7,717 nt of DNA, from NCBI GenBank assembly GCA_026985515.1, contig JALSQH010000216.1:1-7717 (forward strand), in the 5' to 3' direction. This DNA comes from a bacterium. Its GTDB lineage: Bacteria > JALSQH01. Both the position numbers and the translations under genes were made by a program. The notes beneath the pieces are model-generated. The model saw only the letters and a program-made list of their open reading frames with translations. It had not been told where the DNA came from and did no database searches. Position 1 is the stretch's first letter. Every line of letters begins with the position of its first letter. Shown in pieces: positions 1-7,465 of this stretch.

Positions 1-838
1 AATTTTTCCCTTTTTCAACTCTGAATCTTTCACCCTGACTTTTTGAGTGGATGTATTCATGCACCACGTTGTAGAATAGATGAGGTAGTTCCCTTTTTAT
101 CTTTTCCACTTTTTCTTCATTTAATATAGGTACACCATGACCTGGAACTATCATTTTTACAGGAAGCTCCTTTATTTTTTCAAGTGATCTGAAAAGATCA
201 AAGCAGTTTGACCCCTGAGGTCTCAGAGTGCCGGCTTTAATCAATTCCTCTCCATTTTTTCGGACAAAAGCAACCAGAAGGTCTCCCACCACTGCCAGTC
301 CCTTGTCTTCCAGGAAGTAGGTAATGGAATCTGGAGTGTGACCGGGGGTATGGATAACCCTGAATTTGAATCGTCCAATTTCAACTTCTCCTTCTTCAAT
401 GAATTCTGCCTGATAGTGTCGCAGCAGTGCAGGATCAATGTCAAAATATGTTTTCATAACATCAAAAAAATTTATATGGCCTGTGGTGAAACCAGGATGA
501 TACTGGATCGCCTCATCTGTTATGGGATATGCGAAAACTTTTCCGGAATATTTCAGAACATTCATTATGGCGAAATGATCAAAGTGACGGTGGGTAAGAA
601 AAATATTTCTGACATTGAGTGACTCAAAAAATTCTTTTTTCTCCTCAAAGAGAGGATCATTTTTTCTGTAAAAGCCAGGATCAATAAGATCCACAAACTT
701 ACCATTTTCTCCTTCCACTATGGTGGTGTTGCAGTCAAAGATGTAGTATCCTTTTGGATTCACAGGCGAAAAGATCTTCTCACCTCGTAAGATTTTGATT
801 CCATCAACAGCTTCAATCACTCTTTCTTTGATACTCAT
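1..838 (-). CDS. MBL-fold metallo-hydrolase, C-terminus cut by window edge
   Basis: The reading frame starts at the ATG at 836-838 and stays open for 279 codons to the left edge, so the C-terminus is missing. The metallo-beta-lactamase signature is complete: THRHFDH at residues 82-88 (His83, His85, Asp87, His88), HTPGHT at 163-168 (His167), VGDLL with Asp186, and PGHG with His234. This predicts a dinuclear metal hydrolase of the glyoxalase II-like superfamily, cytoplasmic since no signal peptide is visible. A segment at about 113-145, between the first and second metal motifs, may shape the substrate pocket. The start lies 9 nt after the bioF stop with no good Shine-Dalgarno site in between; an AGGGG inside the bioF end is rather far, so translation is probably coupled to bioF. 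The substrate is unknown. Its place behind bioB and bioF hints at a thioester or ester hydrolase role near biotin synthesis, but that is inference only. Confidence 0.9.
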   Translation of the reverse strand, partial: MSIKERVIEAVDGIKILRGEKIFSPVNPKGYYIFDCNTTIVEGENGKFVDLIDPGFYRKNDPLFEEKKEFFESLNVRNIFLTHRHFDHFAIMNVLKYSGKVFAYPITDEAIQYHPGFTTGHINFFDVMKTYFDIDPALLRHYQAEFIEEGEVEIGRFKFRVIHTPGHTPDSITYFLEDKGLAVVGDLLVAFVRKNGEELIKAGTLRPQGSNCFDLFRSLEKIKELPVKMIVPGHGVPILNEEKVEKIKRELPHLFYNVVHEYIHSKSQGERFRVEKGKN

Positions 839-847
839 GTCAATTTA

Positions 848-2038
848 TTATACCCCTATTTTGAGGGTAATTCCATATTTTTTTCCCAGGGAGAGGAGAG
901 ATTCAAGAAGATCAGATATTTCTTCGAAAGTGTGGGTGGCCATAAGAGATACTCTCAGCCTTGAGGTTCCAGGAGGTACAGTTGGTGGTCTTATTGCCCC
1001 CACAAAGAATCCCTTCTCATACAGATCCGCTGATATCTTAAGCGTGGTTTCCTCCCTCCCAATGATAACAGGGACTATCTGGGATGAGAGATGAATCTCC
1101 CTTTTGAATAGTTCCTCTGCCCTCTTTTCAAAGAATCTGATGTTTTCCCATAATTTTTTTCTCAATCTTTCATCTTTTCTCATTATTTCCATTGCCTTTA
1201 TAATGGCAGACGCAAGTGGAACCGGGTAGCCGGTGGTAAAAATAAAGCTTCTGCTCCTGTTAATAAGGAAATTGATTAGATTTTTGCTTCCAGCCACATA
1301 TCCTCCTGAAACTCCCACAGCCTTGCCAAGGGTGCCCATGTGTATTTCAATTTCATTTTGTAGACCCAGATGAAAGGCAAGTCCTCTTCCCTCTGGGCCG
1401 AAAATTCCCGTTGCATGTGCTTCATCTACCATTACAGCGGCATTGTACCGCCCGGCAATTTCAACTATTTCCTTTAAAGGTGCCAGATCTCCATCCATGC
1501 TGAAAACTGTGTCTGTGACTATCAATTTTTTTTCTGCCCTGCTTTTTGAAAGGAGTTCTTCCAGGTGTCCTGTGTCGCGATGTCTGTAGATGCTTATTTT
1601 TGCTTTACTCAGTCTGCAACCATCTATGATAGATGCATGGTTGAGCTGATCGCTGAATATTTCATCCTCCTTACCCATCAGGGCTGTTATAATACCGACA
1701 TTTGTGTGATAGCCACTTGTATAAACCAGTGAAGCTTCCTTTTCTTTAAACTCAGCTATATATTTTTCCAGCTGGTTGTGTGGTGAATGATTACCAACAA
1801 TCAGTCTCGCCGAGCCAGAACCTACACCCCATTTTTCCGCAGAATTAACCAGAGCTTTTATCACTTCGGGATGGGATGCGAGGCCAAGATAGTTGTTTGA
1901 TGAAAAATTTATAACCTCTCTGCCATTTATAATGATTCTGCTTCGCTGGGGTGAGGATACTTCCCTCAATTCCCTGTAGAGACCCTTCTGTTTTATTTCA
2001 TCTATTTTTTCCATTATCCACTTTTCTAACCAGCTCAT
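848..2038 (-). CDS. bioF: 8-amino-7-oxononanoate synthase (KAPA synthase)
   Basis: This 396-residue PLP enzyme of the alpha-oxoamine synthase family condenses pimeloyl-ACP or pimeloyl-CoA with L-alanine to give KAPA, the first committed ring-forming precursor of biotin. Visible motifs are NFSSNNYLGLASHPEV (44-59), GSGSARLIVG (73-82), NHAS (133-136, His134 stacking on PLP), SMDGD (180-184), VDEAHATGIFG (204-214, Asp205 binding the pyridine nitrogen) and GTLGKAVG (235-242) with Lys239 as the Schiff-base lysine. The C-terminal PPGTSRLRVSLMATHT (355-370) matches the family's GTxRLRxxLxAxHT pattern. Length is normal. The family also contains 2-amino-3-ketobutyrate CoA ligase (Kbl), which motifs alone do not exclude. 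The bioF call rests mainly on context: its ATG overlaps the bioB stop in an ATGA, so the two are co-translated. The local Shine-Dalgarno (GGAAA) is weak, consistent with coupling. Confidence 0.93.
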   Translation of the reverse strand: MSWLEKWIMEKIDEIKQKGLYRELREVSSPQRSRIIINGREVINFSSNNYLGLASHPEVIKALVNSAEKWGVGSGSARLIVGNHSPHNQLEKYIAEFKEKEASLVYTSGYHTNVGIITALMGKEDEIFSDQLNHASIIDGCRLSKAKISIYRHRDTGHLEELLSKSRAEKKLIVTDTVFSMDGDLAPLKEIVEIAGRYNAAVMVDEAHATGIFGPEGRGLAFHLGLQNEIEIHMGTLGKAVGVSGGYVAGSKNLINFLINRSRSFIFTTGYPVPLASAIIKAMEIMRKDERLRKKLWENIRFFEKRAEELFKREIHLSSQIVPVIIGREETTLKISADLYEKGFFVGAIRPPTVPPGTSRLRVSLMATHTFEEISDLLESLLSLGKKYGITLKIGV

Positions 2039-3006
2039 AATATTTCCAGCCCCAGTTTAGTGACCATTTTTATATCATCTTCAAAATTTCTTCCTTTTGT
2101 GGTGAGGTAGTTACCCACCATGAGTCCGGATACACCTGCAAGGATCAGATAAGATTGCAGATCACCCATAAGGTATTCTCTTCCTCCAGCAATAAGAATG
2201 TGTTTATCGGGAAATATTAGTCTGTATACTGCAACACTTTTTAACGCATCGAGGGGGGTTAGATAGTGAGCGTTTTCAAGAGGTGTTCCAGGAATGGGAT
2301 GGAGAAAATTTATTGGAATTGAGTCAACATCAAGTTTTTTTAACTGATGAGCCATTTCTATTCTCTGTTCAAAACTCTCACCCAGACCAAAGATCCCTCC
2401 TGAACATATTTCCAGACCTATTTCCTTTGCTTTTTCAAGAACTCTTATTTTATCCTCCTGTTTGTGTGTTGTAACAATTCTGGGATAGTATGAAGCTGAT
2501 GTTTCGAGGTTGTTGTGGTATCTTGAGAGTCCTGCATTTTTCAGATCTTTCAGAAAATCTTCATCTATCACACCGAGGGATGCGTCTGGAAGAATCTCTG
2601 CCTTTTCTCTTATGAGTTCAACTGCCTTTAGGATTTTCATCTTTTGTCTTTTGGTAAAGGAGCCTCTTCCACTTGTGACGATGGAGAAACGCCTTGCTTT
2701 CCCTTTCTTTGCAATCAGTGCCCTGTTAAGAATTTCTTCAGGTTCCATAAGAGGATAGATGGGCATTTTTGCTTTTGACACAGATGACTGGGCGCAGAAG
2801 GCGCAATCCTCCGGACACAGCCCCGATTTGGCATTAACAATGGCGCAGAATTCAATTTTATTGGTAAAGTGTTTCTCTTTGATGGCGGTAGCAGTTGAAA
2901 AAAGGTTTAAAAGATCCGTTAGTTTATCTATTTTTTTTATTCTGTTAATGAGTTCCTCATCCAGATTGAGATCTTCAACCAGCTTTGAAAAATCCCTTCC
3001 CTGCAT
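2035..3006 (-). CDS. bioB: Biotin synthase, radical SAM, variant auxiliary-cluster site
   Basis: This 323-residue enzyme inserts sulfur into dethiobiotin, the last step of biotin synthesis. The radical SAM cluster motif is CPEDCAFC, with Cys64, Cys68 and Cys71 binding the [4Fe-4S] cluster. Other BioB hallmarks are NAKSG (58-62), YHNNLETS (163-170), CSGGIFGLGE (201-210), INFLHPIPGTP (232-242) and AGGRE (273-277). In the E. coli enzyme the sulfur-donor [2Fe-2S] cluster is held by Cys97, Cys128, Cys188 and Arg260. Here the aligned residues appear to be Ser108, Asp141, Cys201 and Arg276, so two of three cysteines are missing. Only one further cysteine, Cys54, exists in the protein. This points to a biotin synthase with a different auxiliary cluster rather than a dead enzyme. 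The ATG is the first possible start, because an in-frame TAA lies 12-10 nt before it. No Shine-Dalgarno site is visible and a TATAAT sits just upstream. Confidence 0.95.
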   Translation of the reverse strand: MQGRDFSKLVEDLNLDEELINRIKKIDKLTDLLNLFSTATAIKEKHFTNKIEFCAIVNAKSGLCPEDCAFCAQSSVSKAKMPIYPLMEPEEILNRALIAKKGKARRFSIVTSGRGSFTKRQKMKILKAVELIREKAEILPDASLGVIDEDFLKDLKNAGLSRYHNNLETSASYYPRIVTTHKQEDKIRVLEKAKEIGLEICSGGIFGLGESFEQRIEMAHQLKKLDVDSIPINFLHPIPGTPLENAHYLTPLDALKSVAVYRLIFPDKHILIAGGREYLMGDLQSYLILAGVSGLMVGNYLTTKGRNFEDDIKMVTKLGLEIL

Positions 3007-3014
3007 AATTGAAT

Positions 3015-3043
3015 ATTATACAGTGATGGGGGAAGAATGAAAG
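3015..3043 (-). promoter_or_regulatory. Candidate bioB promoter, near-leaderless
   Basis: In the 41-nt gap before bioB the minus strand carries a perfect -10 box, TATAAT (3020-3015), preceded after 17 nt by a weak -35, CTTTCA (3043-3038). A start about 7 nt beyond the -10 would fall at or next to the bioB ATG, giving a leaderless or almost leaderless transcript. That fits the lack of a Shine-Dalgarno site. No convincing BirA or BioR operator palindrome and no room for a riboswitch were seen. Confidence 0.5.
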
Positions 3044-3047
3044 GCTC

Positions 3048-4136
3048 TTATCTTGTAAGAAGGTTTTTAAATTGAGTGAAAAAGTCAGGTATTCCGACGT
3101 TTATTAAATATCCCGTTTCTAACTCATTAGAACTTATCTCCATTCCCAAGAGAAAATTTTCGATGGTGGCAAGAATCAATAAATTTTGATTCGCCAACTG
3201 AATCAGGACATATTCCTTTATCGGTGGATATCCAATTTCTTTTTCTATTCTATGGTATGTGTTGAAAATAGATATAAAATTTGCCATAAAATCACCTTTA
3301 TCACCTTTTTTAAATACAACTTCAGGAGAACTTGAAATATGAACAATTCCAATGTTTAATAACGATGTTCCGAAAATATCTTGAAGTATTTGCTCTACCT
3401 TTGTTACCTCGCTATCTTGCTCATTGCTTTTAATAATTTCTTTCTGTTTTTCTCCTAAATTTCTTGTCTCTTCATCTATCTGTCTTGATGATTCCATAAG
3501 AATAAATTCAATTGGAGCTATTACCTCAGGTTTAACATTTTTGAATGGCAGTTGTTCGTAAAAATAACTCTTAAGTGAAAGAATCTTTTTTAAAGCATCA
3601 ACTCCTGTCAGGTCACCGAAGTTGCATCTTATCAGATTCCCGTCCTGTATGTAAATTTCTCCTTCCCCTTCCCTTGAAACTACCTTTATTCTCGCACTTC
3701 CCTTTTCAAATCCGACTACTGAGAGTAGAGTTGGCAGATCAATTTTTACTTTTCCTGTTACTGGAGTTTCTTCATCTTTTCTTGATAATAGGAATTCTAT
3801 TGATTCAATTAATTGCTCTTTGGTTACTGGTTTGCTTAACATGTAATCTATACCAATTTCTGCAATTCTCCTTGCGACTTTGTCATTTAAGTATCCGCTC
3901 ACTACAAGAAATTTTTGCATAGGATTGCGTTGTTTAATGTTCTTAATCAATTTAATCCCATCCATTTTTGGCATAACTAAGTCGGTTATAATGAGATCAT
4001 ATTTGTCAGGAGAATATTCTTTAATCAAAGAAAAGGGATTATTGTACAATTTAATGTTATATTTATCAGCAAGAAATGATTTATACTGTGACAATATCTT
4101 GTCCTCGTCATCTATGACGGCTATTCTGTAACTCAT
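3048..4136 (-). CDS. Response-regulator receiver protein with PATAN (DUF4388) and Roadblock-like domains
   Basis: This 362-residue soluble protein has three parts. Residues 1-120 form a CheY-like receiver: acidic pair Asp9-Asp10, phospho-acceptor Asp52 in LIITDLVMPKMDG, switch Ser80, and Lys102 in SKP. Residues 128-194 resemble a PATAN/DUF4388 domain (GKVKIDLPTLLSVVGFEKG, then EGEIYIQDGNLIRCNFGD and a GVDALKKIL helix). After a polar linker (about 215-243), residues 245-362 show a helix, two strands, a long helix, three strands and a last helix, the order of a Roadblock/LC7 fold; this third call is from secondary-structure reading and is weaker. There is no DNA-binding or enzymatic output domain, so output is probably by protein contact. 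It starts in an ATGA overlap with the upstream Roadblock-like gene, with GAGGA 9 nt before the ATG, so the two proteins are probably partners. No histidine kinase is in the window. Base composition is AT-rich. Confidence 0.88.
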   Translation of the reverse strand: MSYRIAVIDDEDKILSQYKSFLADKYNIKLYNNPFSLIKEYSPDKYDLIITDLVMPKMDGIKLIKNIKQRNPMQKFLVVSGYLNDKVARRIAEIGIDYMLSKPVTKEQLIESIEFLLSRKDEETPVTGKVKIDLPTLLSVVGFEKGSARIKVVSREGEGEIYIQDGNLIRCNFGDLTGVDALKKILSLKSYFYEQLPFKNVKPEVIAPIEFILMESSRQIDEETRNLGEKQKEIIKSNEQDSEVTKVEQILQDIFGTSLLNIGIVHISSSPEVVFKKGDKGDFMANFISIFNTYHRIEKEIGYPPIKEYVLIQLANQNLLILATIENFLLGMEISSNELETGYLINVGIPDFFTQFKNLLTR

Positions 4137-4510
4137 TTTCTGTTATCCTCTTTGAAAATATTATTGAATTTCTTTATCATTTCAGGCAGAATGACATTTA
4201 AGAATAAGCCAAGAGGGATTTTCACGGAATCAAAAAGTATACTCCATTGATAGTGATCATTTGGTATCACCACAAGTTTTTTATCGTTTTTAAGGTCAAA
4301 CAAATAATAATCACCAATTTTAGGAAAGTTTCCATCATGGAGTAATTTTTCAATTTTATAGGTTAACTCTGAGATTAATATACCGCCTTTTTTATGAAAA
4401 TTCTTTCCAGCTACTATCTTTTTTTCTTTATTGGACCAGATAAATGTACTAACTAAGGAATCTTTTAATTCATCTTCCAGCGAAGCTAAAATTCCTTCTA
4501 ATGGGCCCAT
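4133..4510 (-). CDS. Small divergent Roadblock/LC7-like protein
   Basis: This 125-residue soluble protein has no motif I can name with certainty. Its predicted order is helix (3-17), strand pair around STFIWSNKEKKIVAGK (21-36), helix (about 42-58), strands around YYLFDLKNDKKLVVIPND (68-85) and WSILFDS (89-95), and a long C-terminal helix (about 98-120). That is the Roadblock/LC7 order, although the classical glycine and Asp-Gly positions are not kept. Its stop overlaps the start of the receiver-PATAN gene by ATGA, so the products are likely made together and may interact. The ATG at 4508-4510 is the only reasonable start: an in-frame TAA lies about 18 nt upstream. The Shine-Dalgarno is poor (GGA at 8 nt); a better AAGGAG is about 23 nt upstream. 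GC content is clearly lower than in the biotin genes. Confidence 0.75.
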   Translation of the reverse strand: MGPLEGILASLEDELKDSLVSTFIWSNKEKKIVAGKNFHKKGGILISELTYKIEKLLHDGNFPKIGDYYLFDLKNDKKLVVIPNDHYQWSILFDSVKIPLGLFLNVILPEMIKKFNNIFKEDNRK

Positions 4511-4610: not shown

Positions 4611-5948
4611 TTAATCTCCAACAATACCTCTTATTATTTCATAATTACACTTTGCAACTGATTCCAGATTATAGCCTCCCTCAAGAAGAAGAATTAGTCT
4701 TCCTGAAGCAAATTTTTCAGAGATTTCATTGATTATTTTTGCCATTTGATAGTAGGCATTTTCGCTGAGCATAAGACCTGTCATTTTCTCATCTCTGTGG
4801 GCATCCTGTCCAGCAGAAACAAGTATAATGTCAGGTTTGTACTCCTCTGCAATGTCATAAACAATTTTAAATTTTTCAAGATATTCATCATCCTCAATAA
4901 GTGGTGGTAATGGAAAGTTACGGGTGTAACCTTTTCCTGGACCAACCCCGGTTTCTTCTTCAGAACCTGTATTGGGATAAAGGTTTCTCTGATGGAAGGA
5001 AACATACATGATTGGTTTGTCATATAAAATTTCCTGGGTGCCATCACCGTGATGAGCGTCCCAGTCTATTATCATTGGCCTGTATCCCTTTTCAAAGAGA
5101 GAAAGAGCCAGTCCAGCCATATTGTTGAAAAAGCAGAAACCCTTGGCCTCGTTTCTTGTGGCATGATGTCCAGGTGGCCTGGCAAGCACAAAAATTTTTT
5201 TGTGTTCTTCCACTATTTCTCCAGCCAGCAGAGCACCACCGAAGGCTAATTTTGCAATGTCGTAGGTTTCTTTTGTTACGAAGTTGTTTCGTCCAAGAGG
5301 GGTAAGTGTCTCTGATGCCTTTTTTACTTTTTCCACAAGTTCTCTGGAGTGTACCTTGAGTAGTTCTTCCTCTGTTGCAGGTCTCGGAGGTATAAGGTTT
5401 AGTTTATGTAAAATACCCTTAATTCTGAGGTAGTTAATCGTATATGCAATTCTTTCGGCTTTCTCCGGATTGTAAGGATTGTCATAGATTAGGAATTTTT
5501 CTGTATATATCAGAGTAAGTGGTGCTTTTTTTATGATGGTGGGATATGGATCGTAAAGATCCATAATTAAACCTCTCTGAGCGACTTTTTCAAACTTATA
5601 ACCAAGTCTCTCATATATTTGGGGTCTTCCAGTTTGTACGAAGAGTTTCTTATAGCCCCGCTCTTTGAGATGGTCGATTAGCAGGTCAAGAGCTCCTTTA
5701 CCATATCCTTTTCCTCTATAAAATTTATCTATTTCAAAGAACAGAAGTTCGGGGAGGTCATCTTCATGATATATAATCAGCATCCCCCCTACAATTTTAC
5801 CTTCGGCTTTGATGGCAAGGTATTCTTTGTTATATTTTTTTTTTATTTTTTCGTAATAGGGTTTCCAGGGGAATTCATCCAGACGGATTTCAGTAAAAGG
5901 ATAATCCTCTACCCTCGCTGTTAAAATTGGAATAAGCTCAACTATCAT
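4611..5948 (-). CDS. Fused GNAT acetyltransferase and zinc-dependent deacetylase (HDAC/AcuC/APAH family)
   Basis: This single 445-residue chain joins two opposing activities. Residues 1-130 are a GNAT domain: KIVGGMLIIY (51-60), the acetyl-CoA loop YRGKGYGKGA (77-86) and the C-terminal signature IYERLGYKFEK (111-121). Residues about 145-445 are a histone-deacetylase-fold hydrolase: RPPGHHA (257-263, catalytic His261-His262), GFCFFNN (270-276), DWDAHHGDG (295-303, zinc ligands Asp297 and His299), SAGQDAH (378-384, zinc ligand Asp382; the common Phe is Gln) and EGGYN (423-427, catalytic Tyr426). Both halves look intact. By family knowledge the substrate could be acetyl-lysine on a protein (as with AcuA/AcuC acting on acetyl-CoA synthetase) or an acetylated polyamine; the sequence does not decide. 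GAAGGA lies 8 nt before the ATG at 5948, supporting the start. The gene follows a strong terminator by only 26 nt, so its own promoter is unclear. Confidence 0.93.
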   Translation of the reverse strand: MIVELIPILTARVEDYPFTEIRLDEFPWKPYYEKIKKKYNKEYLAIKAEGKIVGGMLIIYHEDDLPELLFFEIDKFYRGKGYGKGALDLLIDHLKERGYKKLFVQTGRPQIYERLGYKFEKVAQRGLIMDLYDPYPTIIKKAPLTLIYTEKFLIYDNPYNPEKAERIAYTINYLRIKGILHKLNLIPPRPATEEELLKVHSRELVEKVKKASETLTPLGRNNFVTKETYDIAKLAFGGALLAGEIVEEHKKIFVLARPPGHHATRNEAKGFCFFNNMAGLALSLFEKGYRPMIIDWDAHHGDGTQEILYDKPIMYVSFHQRNLYPNTGSEEETGVGPGKGYTRNFPLPPLIEDDEYLEKFKIVYDIAEEYKPDIILVSAGQDAHRDEKMTGLMLSENAYYQMAKIINEISEKFASGRLILLLEGGYNLESVAKCNYEIIRGIVGD

Positions 5949-6003: not shown

Positions 6004-6372
6004 TTATCCTATTGTTTCATCAAAATCTTCCACAGCTTCGTCCAGCATCATTCTTACAAGACCAAGATTCATGTCTTTGCTACCAATGACGAAGATGAAT
6101 ACTTTTGCCTTTTCTGAATGCATAAGAACTATTTTACCTTCTGTTCCTTCAATTGAGATGGTGTCTGGTTTCCCAAGGGCAGCTTCTGTTATAACTTTCG
6201 TTGCAGTGTTAACTGCATGAGAAATCAATGCAGCGATTTTGTCCTGGGCGTATTTTTTATCCAATTTTGATGCTATGATCATTCCATCTGTACCAACAAT
6301 TGCAGCTCCCTCTGAACCTTCAATATGAGAAAGTTCATCAATGATTTTGTCGAATACTTCCTGTCGTCCCAT
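6004..6372 (-). CDS. Roadblock/LC7 domain protein, MglB-like
   Basis: This 122-residue protein is a single canonical Roadblock/LC7 domain: N-terminal helix (2-16), GAAIVGTDGMIIAS (22-35) with the typical Gly and Asp-Gly turn, helix (43-65), strands around TISIEGTEGKIVLMHS (71-86) and VFIFVIGS (91-98), then MNLGLVRMMLDEAVEDF (101-117). Family members dimerise and act as partners or GTPase-activating proteins of small Ras-like GTPases; MglB with MglA in Myxococcus polarity is the best-known case. No MglA-type GTPase is in the window, so the partner must be elsewhere or absent. The start is firm: AAAGGAGGT (6385-6377) precedes the ATG. It has its own sigma-70 promoter and strong terminator, so it can be a monocistronic unit, although read-through from the two upstream genes is possible. 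Its GC content is close to that of the biotin genes and above that of the divergent Roadblock-like genes. Confidence 0.93.
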   Translation of the reverse strand: MGRQEVFDKIIDELSHIEGSEGAAIVGTDGMIIASKLDKKYAQDKIAALISHAVNTATKVITEAALGKPDTISIEGTEGKIVLMHSEKAKVFIFVIGSKDMNLGLVRMMLDEAVEDFDETIG

Positions 6373-6442: not shown

Positions 6443-6778
6443 TCAAGAGGTTCTCATGAGATTTTCAATTTCAAGAACAACTGCAAAGAAACTTGTATCT
6501 GATTTGTCAGTAATAGCTATTATTAGTAAATCTCTAAAAGTTTCACTTTGATTGAAAAAAATGTGTTTGTCGTCAGTTACTATAAAACCTCTATAATTTG
6601 AAAAATCAAAGTTTTCACCTTCGAGTTTCCTTGTAAAATTTCTTAAAATTTTCTTTACAAGTTCTTTACTGTCCAGATTGGTTTCACCGAATATTGCAAG
6701 TTTCTCACTTGTTGCGTTATATATTAAAATTGAATCCAATCCAAACTCATTTATAATTGAACTTATTTGCGGTTCCAT
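6443..6778 (-). CDS. Small divergent Roadblock/LC7-like protein
   Basis: This 111-residue soluble protein has no firm family motif. Its layout fits a Roadblock/LC7 fold: short N-terminal helix (3-12), strand pair SILIYNATSEKLAIFGE (16-32), helix (36-52), strands around YRGFIVTDDKHIFFNQ (62-77) and DLLIIAITD (83-91), and a C-terminal helix (96-109). The Asn-Ala-Thr turn replaces the usual Asp-Gly. The start is well supported by GAGGAG (6791-6786) 7 nt before the ATG; another ATG at 6783 is in the wrong frame. The gene begins 15 nt after the stop of the YHIQTE-motif gene, so they form one operon. Its AT-rich composition matches that neighbour. Function is unknown; heterodimerisation with the other Roadblock-type proteins here is a reasonable inference. 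Confidence 0.75.
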   Translation of the reverse strand: MEPQISSIINEFGLDSILIYNATSEKLAIFGETNLDSKELVKKILRNFTRKLEGENFDFSNYRGFIVTDDKHIFFNQSETFRDLLIIAITDKSDTSFFAVVLEIENLMRTS

Positions 6779-6793
6779 TTCATTTCTCCTCTT

Positions 6794-7465
6794 TTAGTTT
6801 AAATTTTCAATCAGCGGTAAATATCGGTTCAATTCGAGTGTAACGATTCCTGTGGGGAAATTTTTATAAAATTTAAATATACCTACATTGTCTCTATGAA
6901 TGATAAAAAGATATTTATTTAAATTTGTTTCAAAAAAAGAATATTTAACTTTATTTTTTAAGATAGATGTTGAAAGTGTAATTAAATTTTCTAAAAAAGA
7001 TTCCACAATTTCTCTCTCTTTGTTTTGGGTCTCAGTGAAATTTATTCTTTTCATGACTTTTGACTTATTTTTATGGCATACTTTTATTTCATGGCTATAT
7101 TCTTTTGATATATTTTCGGCAACTTTTATTAACCACTCTATAAATAATTTCTCATTACGGTTATCATATCCTGATTTATTGTTTTCATCTTTTAGCCATT
7201 TAAGACTTTTTTGATGTAATATCTTGACAAGTTTTATTATTCCCCTTTTAAGATTCTCATTGGTTATCGTCTCATCATTATAGAATTTTTTGAAAGAAAC
7301 GAAATCGCTATAGATAATTTCACCTTTGTGATAAATATGCGTGGACACAATTAATTTATTCGGTAAAACTTCTGTTTGAATGTGATAAAACCTGTTATTT
7401 AGGTTTAGATTCTCATTTATGCCGGGAATCGGGAAAATGTTATTTCTCTTAATAAGTGGTAACAT
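6794..7465 (-). CDS. YHIQTE-motif protein with probable C-terminal Roadblock-like domain
   Basis: This 223-residue protein is not one I can name. The N-terminal part (about 24-92) has RFYHIQTE (25-32), then LIVSTHIYHKGEIIYS (38-53) and a helix LVKILHQKSLKWLKDE (79-94). From memory this resembles an unnamed bacterial family with a YHVQTED motif, a TxxFxxGxI strand and a helix containing QHxxM, often seen in Deltaproteobacteria near signalling genes. The rest (about 105-220) reads as helix, strand pair (EIKVCHKNKSKVMKRI, 126-141), helix (148-169), three strands (173-211) and a last helix, which fits another Roadblock-like fold. No signal peptide or membrane segment is seen. The start is supported by GGAGGG (7477-7472), 6 nt before the ATG. 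It is the first gene of a two-gene operon behind a strong promoter. A hand-counted 60-nt stretch inside it has about 27% GC. Confidence 0.75.
   Translation of the reverse strand: MLPLIKRNNIFPIPGINENLNLNNRFYHIQTEVLPNKLIVSTHIYHKGEIIYSDFVSFKKFYNDETITNENLKRGIIKLVKILHQKSLKWLKDENNKSGYDNRNEKLFIEWLIKVAENISKEYSHEIKVCHKNKSKVMKRINFTETQNKEREIVESFLENLITLSTSILKNKVKYSFFETNLNKYLFIIHRDNVGIFKFYKNFPTGIVTLELNRYLPLIENLN

Follow-up and report, generated by a model that had tools for sequence, protein, structure and literature searches.

A GNAT acetyltransferase-zinc deacetylase fusion beside a conserved Roadblock/LC7 gene: a candidate single-chain acetylation switch

What would a protein do that joins an acetyltransferase to a deacetylase, and what would it act on? 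The question is raised by one gene in a 7,717-nucleotide stretch of DNA (the window), which is contig C216 of the 2.36 Mb, 268-contig draft genome G000 and is free of any N. The initial annotation proposed that an N-terminal GNAT domain and a C-terminal HDAC-fold hydrolase lie on one chain, where they would form a reversible acetylation switch. The features of this protein are as follows.

4611..5948, minus strand: GNAT-HDAC fusion protein, 445 aa (open reading frame; Pfam; AlphaFold2 model)
5535..5948, minus strand: GNAT half, residues about 1-138 (Pfam; GNAT fold)
5700..5717, minus strand: acetyl-CoA loop RGKGYG, residues 78-83, of the form R-x-x-G-x-G, kept in all three known fusions
4614..5528, minus strand: HDAC half, residues 141-445 (Pfam; structure matches)
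5163..5168, minus strand: catalytic histidine pair H261-H262, His in 128 of 128 aligned deacetylases
5052..5060, minus strand: zinc ligands D297 and H299, conserved in 128 of 128
4803..4805, minus strand: zinc ligand D382, conserved in 128 of 128
4671..4673, minus strand: catalytic tyrosine Y426, Tyr in 127 of 128

The presence of both domains in one protein was borne out. The frame, which runs from 5948 to 4611 on the minus strand, opens with ATG, contains no internal stops and matches both Pfam Acetyltransf_1 over residues 21-117 (E 4.8e-12; 46.6 bits against a curated cut-off of 20.7) and Hist_deacetyl over residues 161-440 (E 5.5e-79, above its cut-off). The AlphaFold2 model of the whole protein has a mean pLDDT of 88.5 and a pTM of 0.77. 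A sequencing or assembly join between two neighbouring genes, which the annotation had named among the findings that would overturn its proposal, might be suspected in so fragmented a draft, but its probability is negligible: the frame is continuous, G+C content is even on either side of the GNAT/HDAC junction (37.4% and 39.5%), and full-length fusions in the same domain order in two independent assemblies with different organism labels refute it.

Those assemblies emerged from the search for the same two-domain order that had been suggested earlier. Among 386 phylum-diverse genomes, G352 encodes a full-length homologue (about 45-46% identical over residues 14-444, E 9e-126). A contig collection covering about 85,000 species was also scanned with the patterns IIDWDAH or FNNMAGLA, sub-alignments that yielded generic deacetylase or GNAT motifs, as judged on a viral collection, having been discarded as queries; the best 80 of 174 deacetylase loci were kept, and the scan is blind to fusions that lack both motifs or rank below 80. 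Two of these best 80 loci are fused, namely L072, which like L060 is the G352 contig, and L071, from a metagenome genome labelled 'Acidobacteria', whose fusion is 72% identical to that of the window. In the other 78 of the best 80, the deacetylase frame contained no GNAT match. No further fusion came from another 385 genomes, a set that overlaps the first sample, or from the viral and phage collections, and a strict scan of genomes using just the GNAT portion found no relatives. Plasmids matched the deacetylase part only, with no record spanning 80% of the query; Padloc gave no match for the fusion protein and PHROGs only a generic acetyltransferase match. The fusion is thus rare, with three carriers in total, two of them close to each other. 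It is the sole deacetylase-family gene of its 97.6%-complete genome; the collection holds two genomes of this phylum, and no deacetylase-family gene was found in the other (80% complete).

In a tree of 128 deacetylase domains, among which there was no AcuC reference, the three fusion HDAC halves are monophyletic with support of 1.0, which one fusion event would explain most simply. No published description of the GNAT-HDAC architecture was found in the open-licence literature, where absence is weak evidence, and no passage describing a GNAT fusion was found in a 2024 survey of bacterial deacylases (PMC11532494). A fungal 'acetyltransferase-deacetylase' match was rejected, as it proved to be two separate genes (PMC7002339).

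The HDAC half has the arginase-deacetylase fold and a full catalytic set of six residues. The residues named in the initial annotation (RGKGYGKG at 78-85, H261-H262, D382 and Y426) were all confirmed, and D297 and H299 complete the zinc and catalytic set. In both sequence and structure searches the best matches were class II enzymes of the HDAC6/HdaH type; the AlphaFold2 model of residues 141-445 gives a Z of about 45 against HdaH-type deacetylases and about 43 against HDAC6, the fold being shared with P. aeruginosa HDAH (5li3) and zebrafish HDAC6 at Z 43-46. Catalytic residues and a hydrophobic gatekeeper are likewise common to the fusion and to the HdaH/class II enzymes of cluster 1 (PMC11532494), whereas the known enzymes of this group carry no GNAT domain. 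The position that serves as gatekeeper in HDAC6 and HDAC10 (seven residues after D382, at 389) is Met or Leu in the fusions, not the Glu of HDAC10. R321, K388 and an Asn or Trp at 326 occur in the fusions and are rare or absent in 125 other deacetylases; M277 and G279 also set the fusions apart, although the sampling of such residues is affected by the scan motif. By comparison with relatives, positions 321, 326 and 388 would lie in loops lining the mouth of the active site, and the substrate may therefore differ from that of ordinary HdaH.

This affinity bears on the earlier suggestion that the gene is a one-gene counterpart of AcuA plus AcuC, controlling acetyl-CoA synthetase. The resemblance is genuine in outline, since AcuA and AcuC of the B. 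subtilis acu operon are also an opposing pair of GNAT acetyltransferase and zinc deacetylase, but they are encoded by separate genes beside acsA and acuB (PMC13121692), whereas the fusion is one chain, has a Roadblock gene next to it and appears to belong to another deacetylase lineage. In favour of such a role, a synthetase-like gene of the window genome keeps the target lysine region (LPQTRNAKVIRR), with a score of 640 bits that falls short of the AcsA cut-off, and a true AcsA, containing LPKTRSGK, is present in carrier G395. Against it, no match to an AcsA-type synthetase exceeds 163 bits in carrier G394 (incompleteness of the genome is possible), the best matches of the HDAC half in sequence and structure searches are HdaH/HDAC6 and not AcuC, and no acs or acuB gene adjoins the fusion in any carrier; acsA, acuA and acuB were found neither in the window nor on the L060 and L071 contigs. 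We therefore regard the claim as weak and this function as improbable.

The GNAT half is less readily assigned. Its acetyl-CoA loop is intact, as had been claimed, with R78-G83 fitting R/Q-x-x-G-x-G/A in all three fusions, and its model adopts a GNAT fold with Z of 11-12 against NAA80, RimI, SpeG and ArgA. These top matches are tied, so the modelled structure singles out no GNAT substrate class; a profile search gave no functional-family match, and its weak matches include amino-acid N-acetyltransferases. E72, Y112 (a candidate general acid), FVQTGR and EFPW do not vary among the three fusions, which are as little as 46% identical. E67, which a hand alignment places at the position of the GCN5 base as a candidate general base, is Gln in the third fusion.

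This substitution, the lack of a clear family for the GNAT half and the complete catalytic set of the HDAC half would all suit a protein in which only the deacetylase catalyses, while the GNAT half senses acetyl-CoA (or CoA) and switches its neighbour on or off. Such an arrangement would remove the problem of a futile cycle. The invariance of the acetyl-CoA loop, E72, Y112, FVQTGR and EFPW, however, suggests that an acceptor site has been kept, and we consider a purely sensory GNAT half unlikely.

The strongest clue to function is one that the initial annotation did not mention, the conserved Roadblock gene next to the fusion. The neighbouring genes in the window are as follows.

3048..4136, minus strand: response regulator with DUF4388, downstream of the fusion (Pfam)
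4133..4510, minus strand: 125 aa protein of no known family (open reading frame), overlapping the response regulator by 4 nt
6004..6372, minus strand: Roadblock/LC7 protein, 122 aa, 55 bp upstream of the fusion
6443..6778, minus strand: 111 aa protein of no known family (open reading frame)
6794..7465, minus strand: 223 aa protein with a sub-threshold RomY N-terminal match, its membership of the module uncertain

Each of the three carriers has a Roadblock/LC7 gene upstream of the fusion and on the same strand. On L060 it is 156 bp from the fusion and makes up the C-terminal portion of a frame encoding a response regulator with DUF4388 (48% identity to the window copy); on L071 (80% identity) one 146-aa gene separates the two. 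A response regulator with DUF4388 is found near the fusion in two of the three, the L071 contig ending just upstream of the Roadblock gene. The 111 aa protein has an uncertain relative adjoining the fusion in L071 (31% in a three-sequence alignment). At E <= 1e-14 the fusion-linked Roadblock subfamily occurs in two of 386 genomes, G000 and G352, both of which carry the fusion; the hypergeometric chance of this is 1.3e-5, a figure to be read in light of the sampling of genomes for kinship and the few independent events. With two of the carriers so close, it may count as no more than two independent observations.

MglB-like Roadblock proteins are encoded elsewhere in all three genomes and lack the LDK-[KR]-YA-x-DKIAAL stretch of the fusion-linked form. 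Three lysines are invariant in four fusion-linked copies, namely K39 and K45 within this stretch and one in G-K-[IM], and these are candidate acetylation sites. MglB/RomY and the Streptomyces conservon systems likewise place a Roadblock protein among signalling partners (PMC9481161, PMC13343842), and the window does hold a weak RomY-like gene. In contrast to those systems, in which the Roadblock gene adjoins one for a small Ras-like GTPase, the three fusion contigs showed no gene for an MglA-type GTPase, matches to the Arf family fall on other contigs, and the fusion-linked Roadblock differs from the genomes' own MglB-like proteins.

These neighbours also weigh on the alternative raised in the initial annotation, that both halves act on a small molecule such as a polyamine, an amino acid or an acetyl-protected biosynthetic intermediate, at different points. 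The GNAT model resembles SpeG, RimI, NAA80 and ArgA to the same degree, its weak profile matches include amino-acid N-acetyltransferases, and the unusual Arg 321 and Lys 388 would suit an acidic substrate. The neighbours conserved among the carriers are nonetheless signalling and not biosynthetic proteins, residue 389 is Met or Leu where HDAC10 has Glu, and bacterial polyamine deacetylases are reported only in a cluster other than cluster 1 (PMC11532494). The polyamine version finds no sequence support, and a small-molecule role in general appears quite unlikely.

Our preferred reading, held tentatively and at somewhat less than an even chance, is that the fusion is a single-chain writer and eraser of acetylation serving a module of Roadblock/LC7 protein and response regulator. 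With acetyl-CoA as donor, the GNAT half would modify an amine, most probably a lysine of a partner protein, and the zinc-deacetylase half would strip the acetyl group again. The dedicated upstream Roadblock protein would be that partner, either selecting which half is active, by which a futile cycle would be avoided, or serving as the acetylated substrate. That both halves are active, that they share a substrate and that this substrate is a protein are inferences, as is the way control would run. In favour are the recurrence of the fusion in three genomes with monophyletic HDAC halves, the retained catalytic residues and GNAT loop, an HDAC half that resembles the protein-lysine deacetylases HDAC6/HdaH with a hydrophobic gatekeeper, the linkage to one Roadblock subfamily, and the response regulator with DUF4388 near two of the three fusions. 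Against are the GNAT half's lack of a functional family, the Gln in place of E67 in the third fusion, the small and partly related set of carriers, the lack of an MglA-type GTPase gene on the three contigs and the gene interposed between Roadblock and fusion in L071. Of the original proposal of a writer and an eraser on one chain, the two opposing domains stand, in three genomes, and the switch activity is a prediction. The narrower version, in which the Roadblock protein is the substrate or controller and the level of acetyl-CoA is fed into the Roadblock/response-regulator pathway, is possible but doubtful.

The regulators GlnE, GlnD, AceK and HprK/P are bifunctional, each combining opposing activities in a single polypeptide. 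The proposed writer-eraser would share with them the need for futile-cycle control and would differ in its chemistry, acetylation in place of adenylylation, uridylylation or phosphorylation. We found no acetylation case of such a regulator in the literature, and a literature search returned no paper linking protein acetylation with Roadblock signalling. If both halves act on one target, the protein would be a self-contained reversible acetylation switch, and if the Roadblock protein is its substrate or controller, an acetylation counterpart of GlnE or HprK/P. Protein acetylation would then be tied to Roadblock signalling, and one gene plus one partner gene would offer a genetic handle by which the balance of opposing acetylation activities could be addressed.

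Several further observations concern the surroundings of these genes. The 223 aa protein (6794-7465) scores 35.8 bits against the RomY N-terminal model NF053858, for which the cut-off is 50, and hints at a possible link to MglB-type polarity control. Downstream of the response regulator the window carries the common biotin genes bioB and bioF and a metallo-beta-lactamase-fold gene on the same strand (2-3006), apparently unrelated. On the G352 contig, a second unit of response regulator-DUF4388 and Roadblock (L060:3336-4645) and a PAS/CBS histidine kinase both lie upstream of the fusion, and in L071 the fusion is closely followed downstream by a Y1-type transposase gene (2596-3387). The nearest unfused deacetylases, from archaea and WOR-3, have a hydantoinase-like neighbour and no GNAT or Roadblock gene. 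In Archaeoglobales and Methanomicrobia, deacetylases that fall near the fusion clade follow a hydantoinase/oxoprolinase-like gene with a 4-nt overlap (L073:6100-8690, L074:421-3008, L084:6139-8666, L090:6139-8669), a second conserved deacetylase pair. Finally, a deacetylase of Methanosarcinaceae (L150:3296-5272) belongs to an open frame of 659 residues, about 330 of which precede the matched region.
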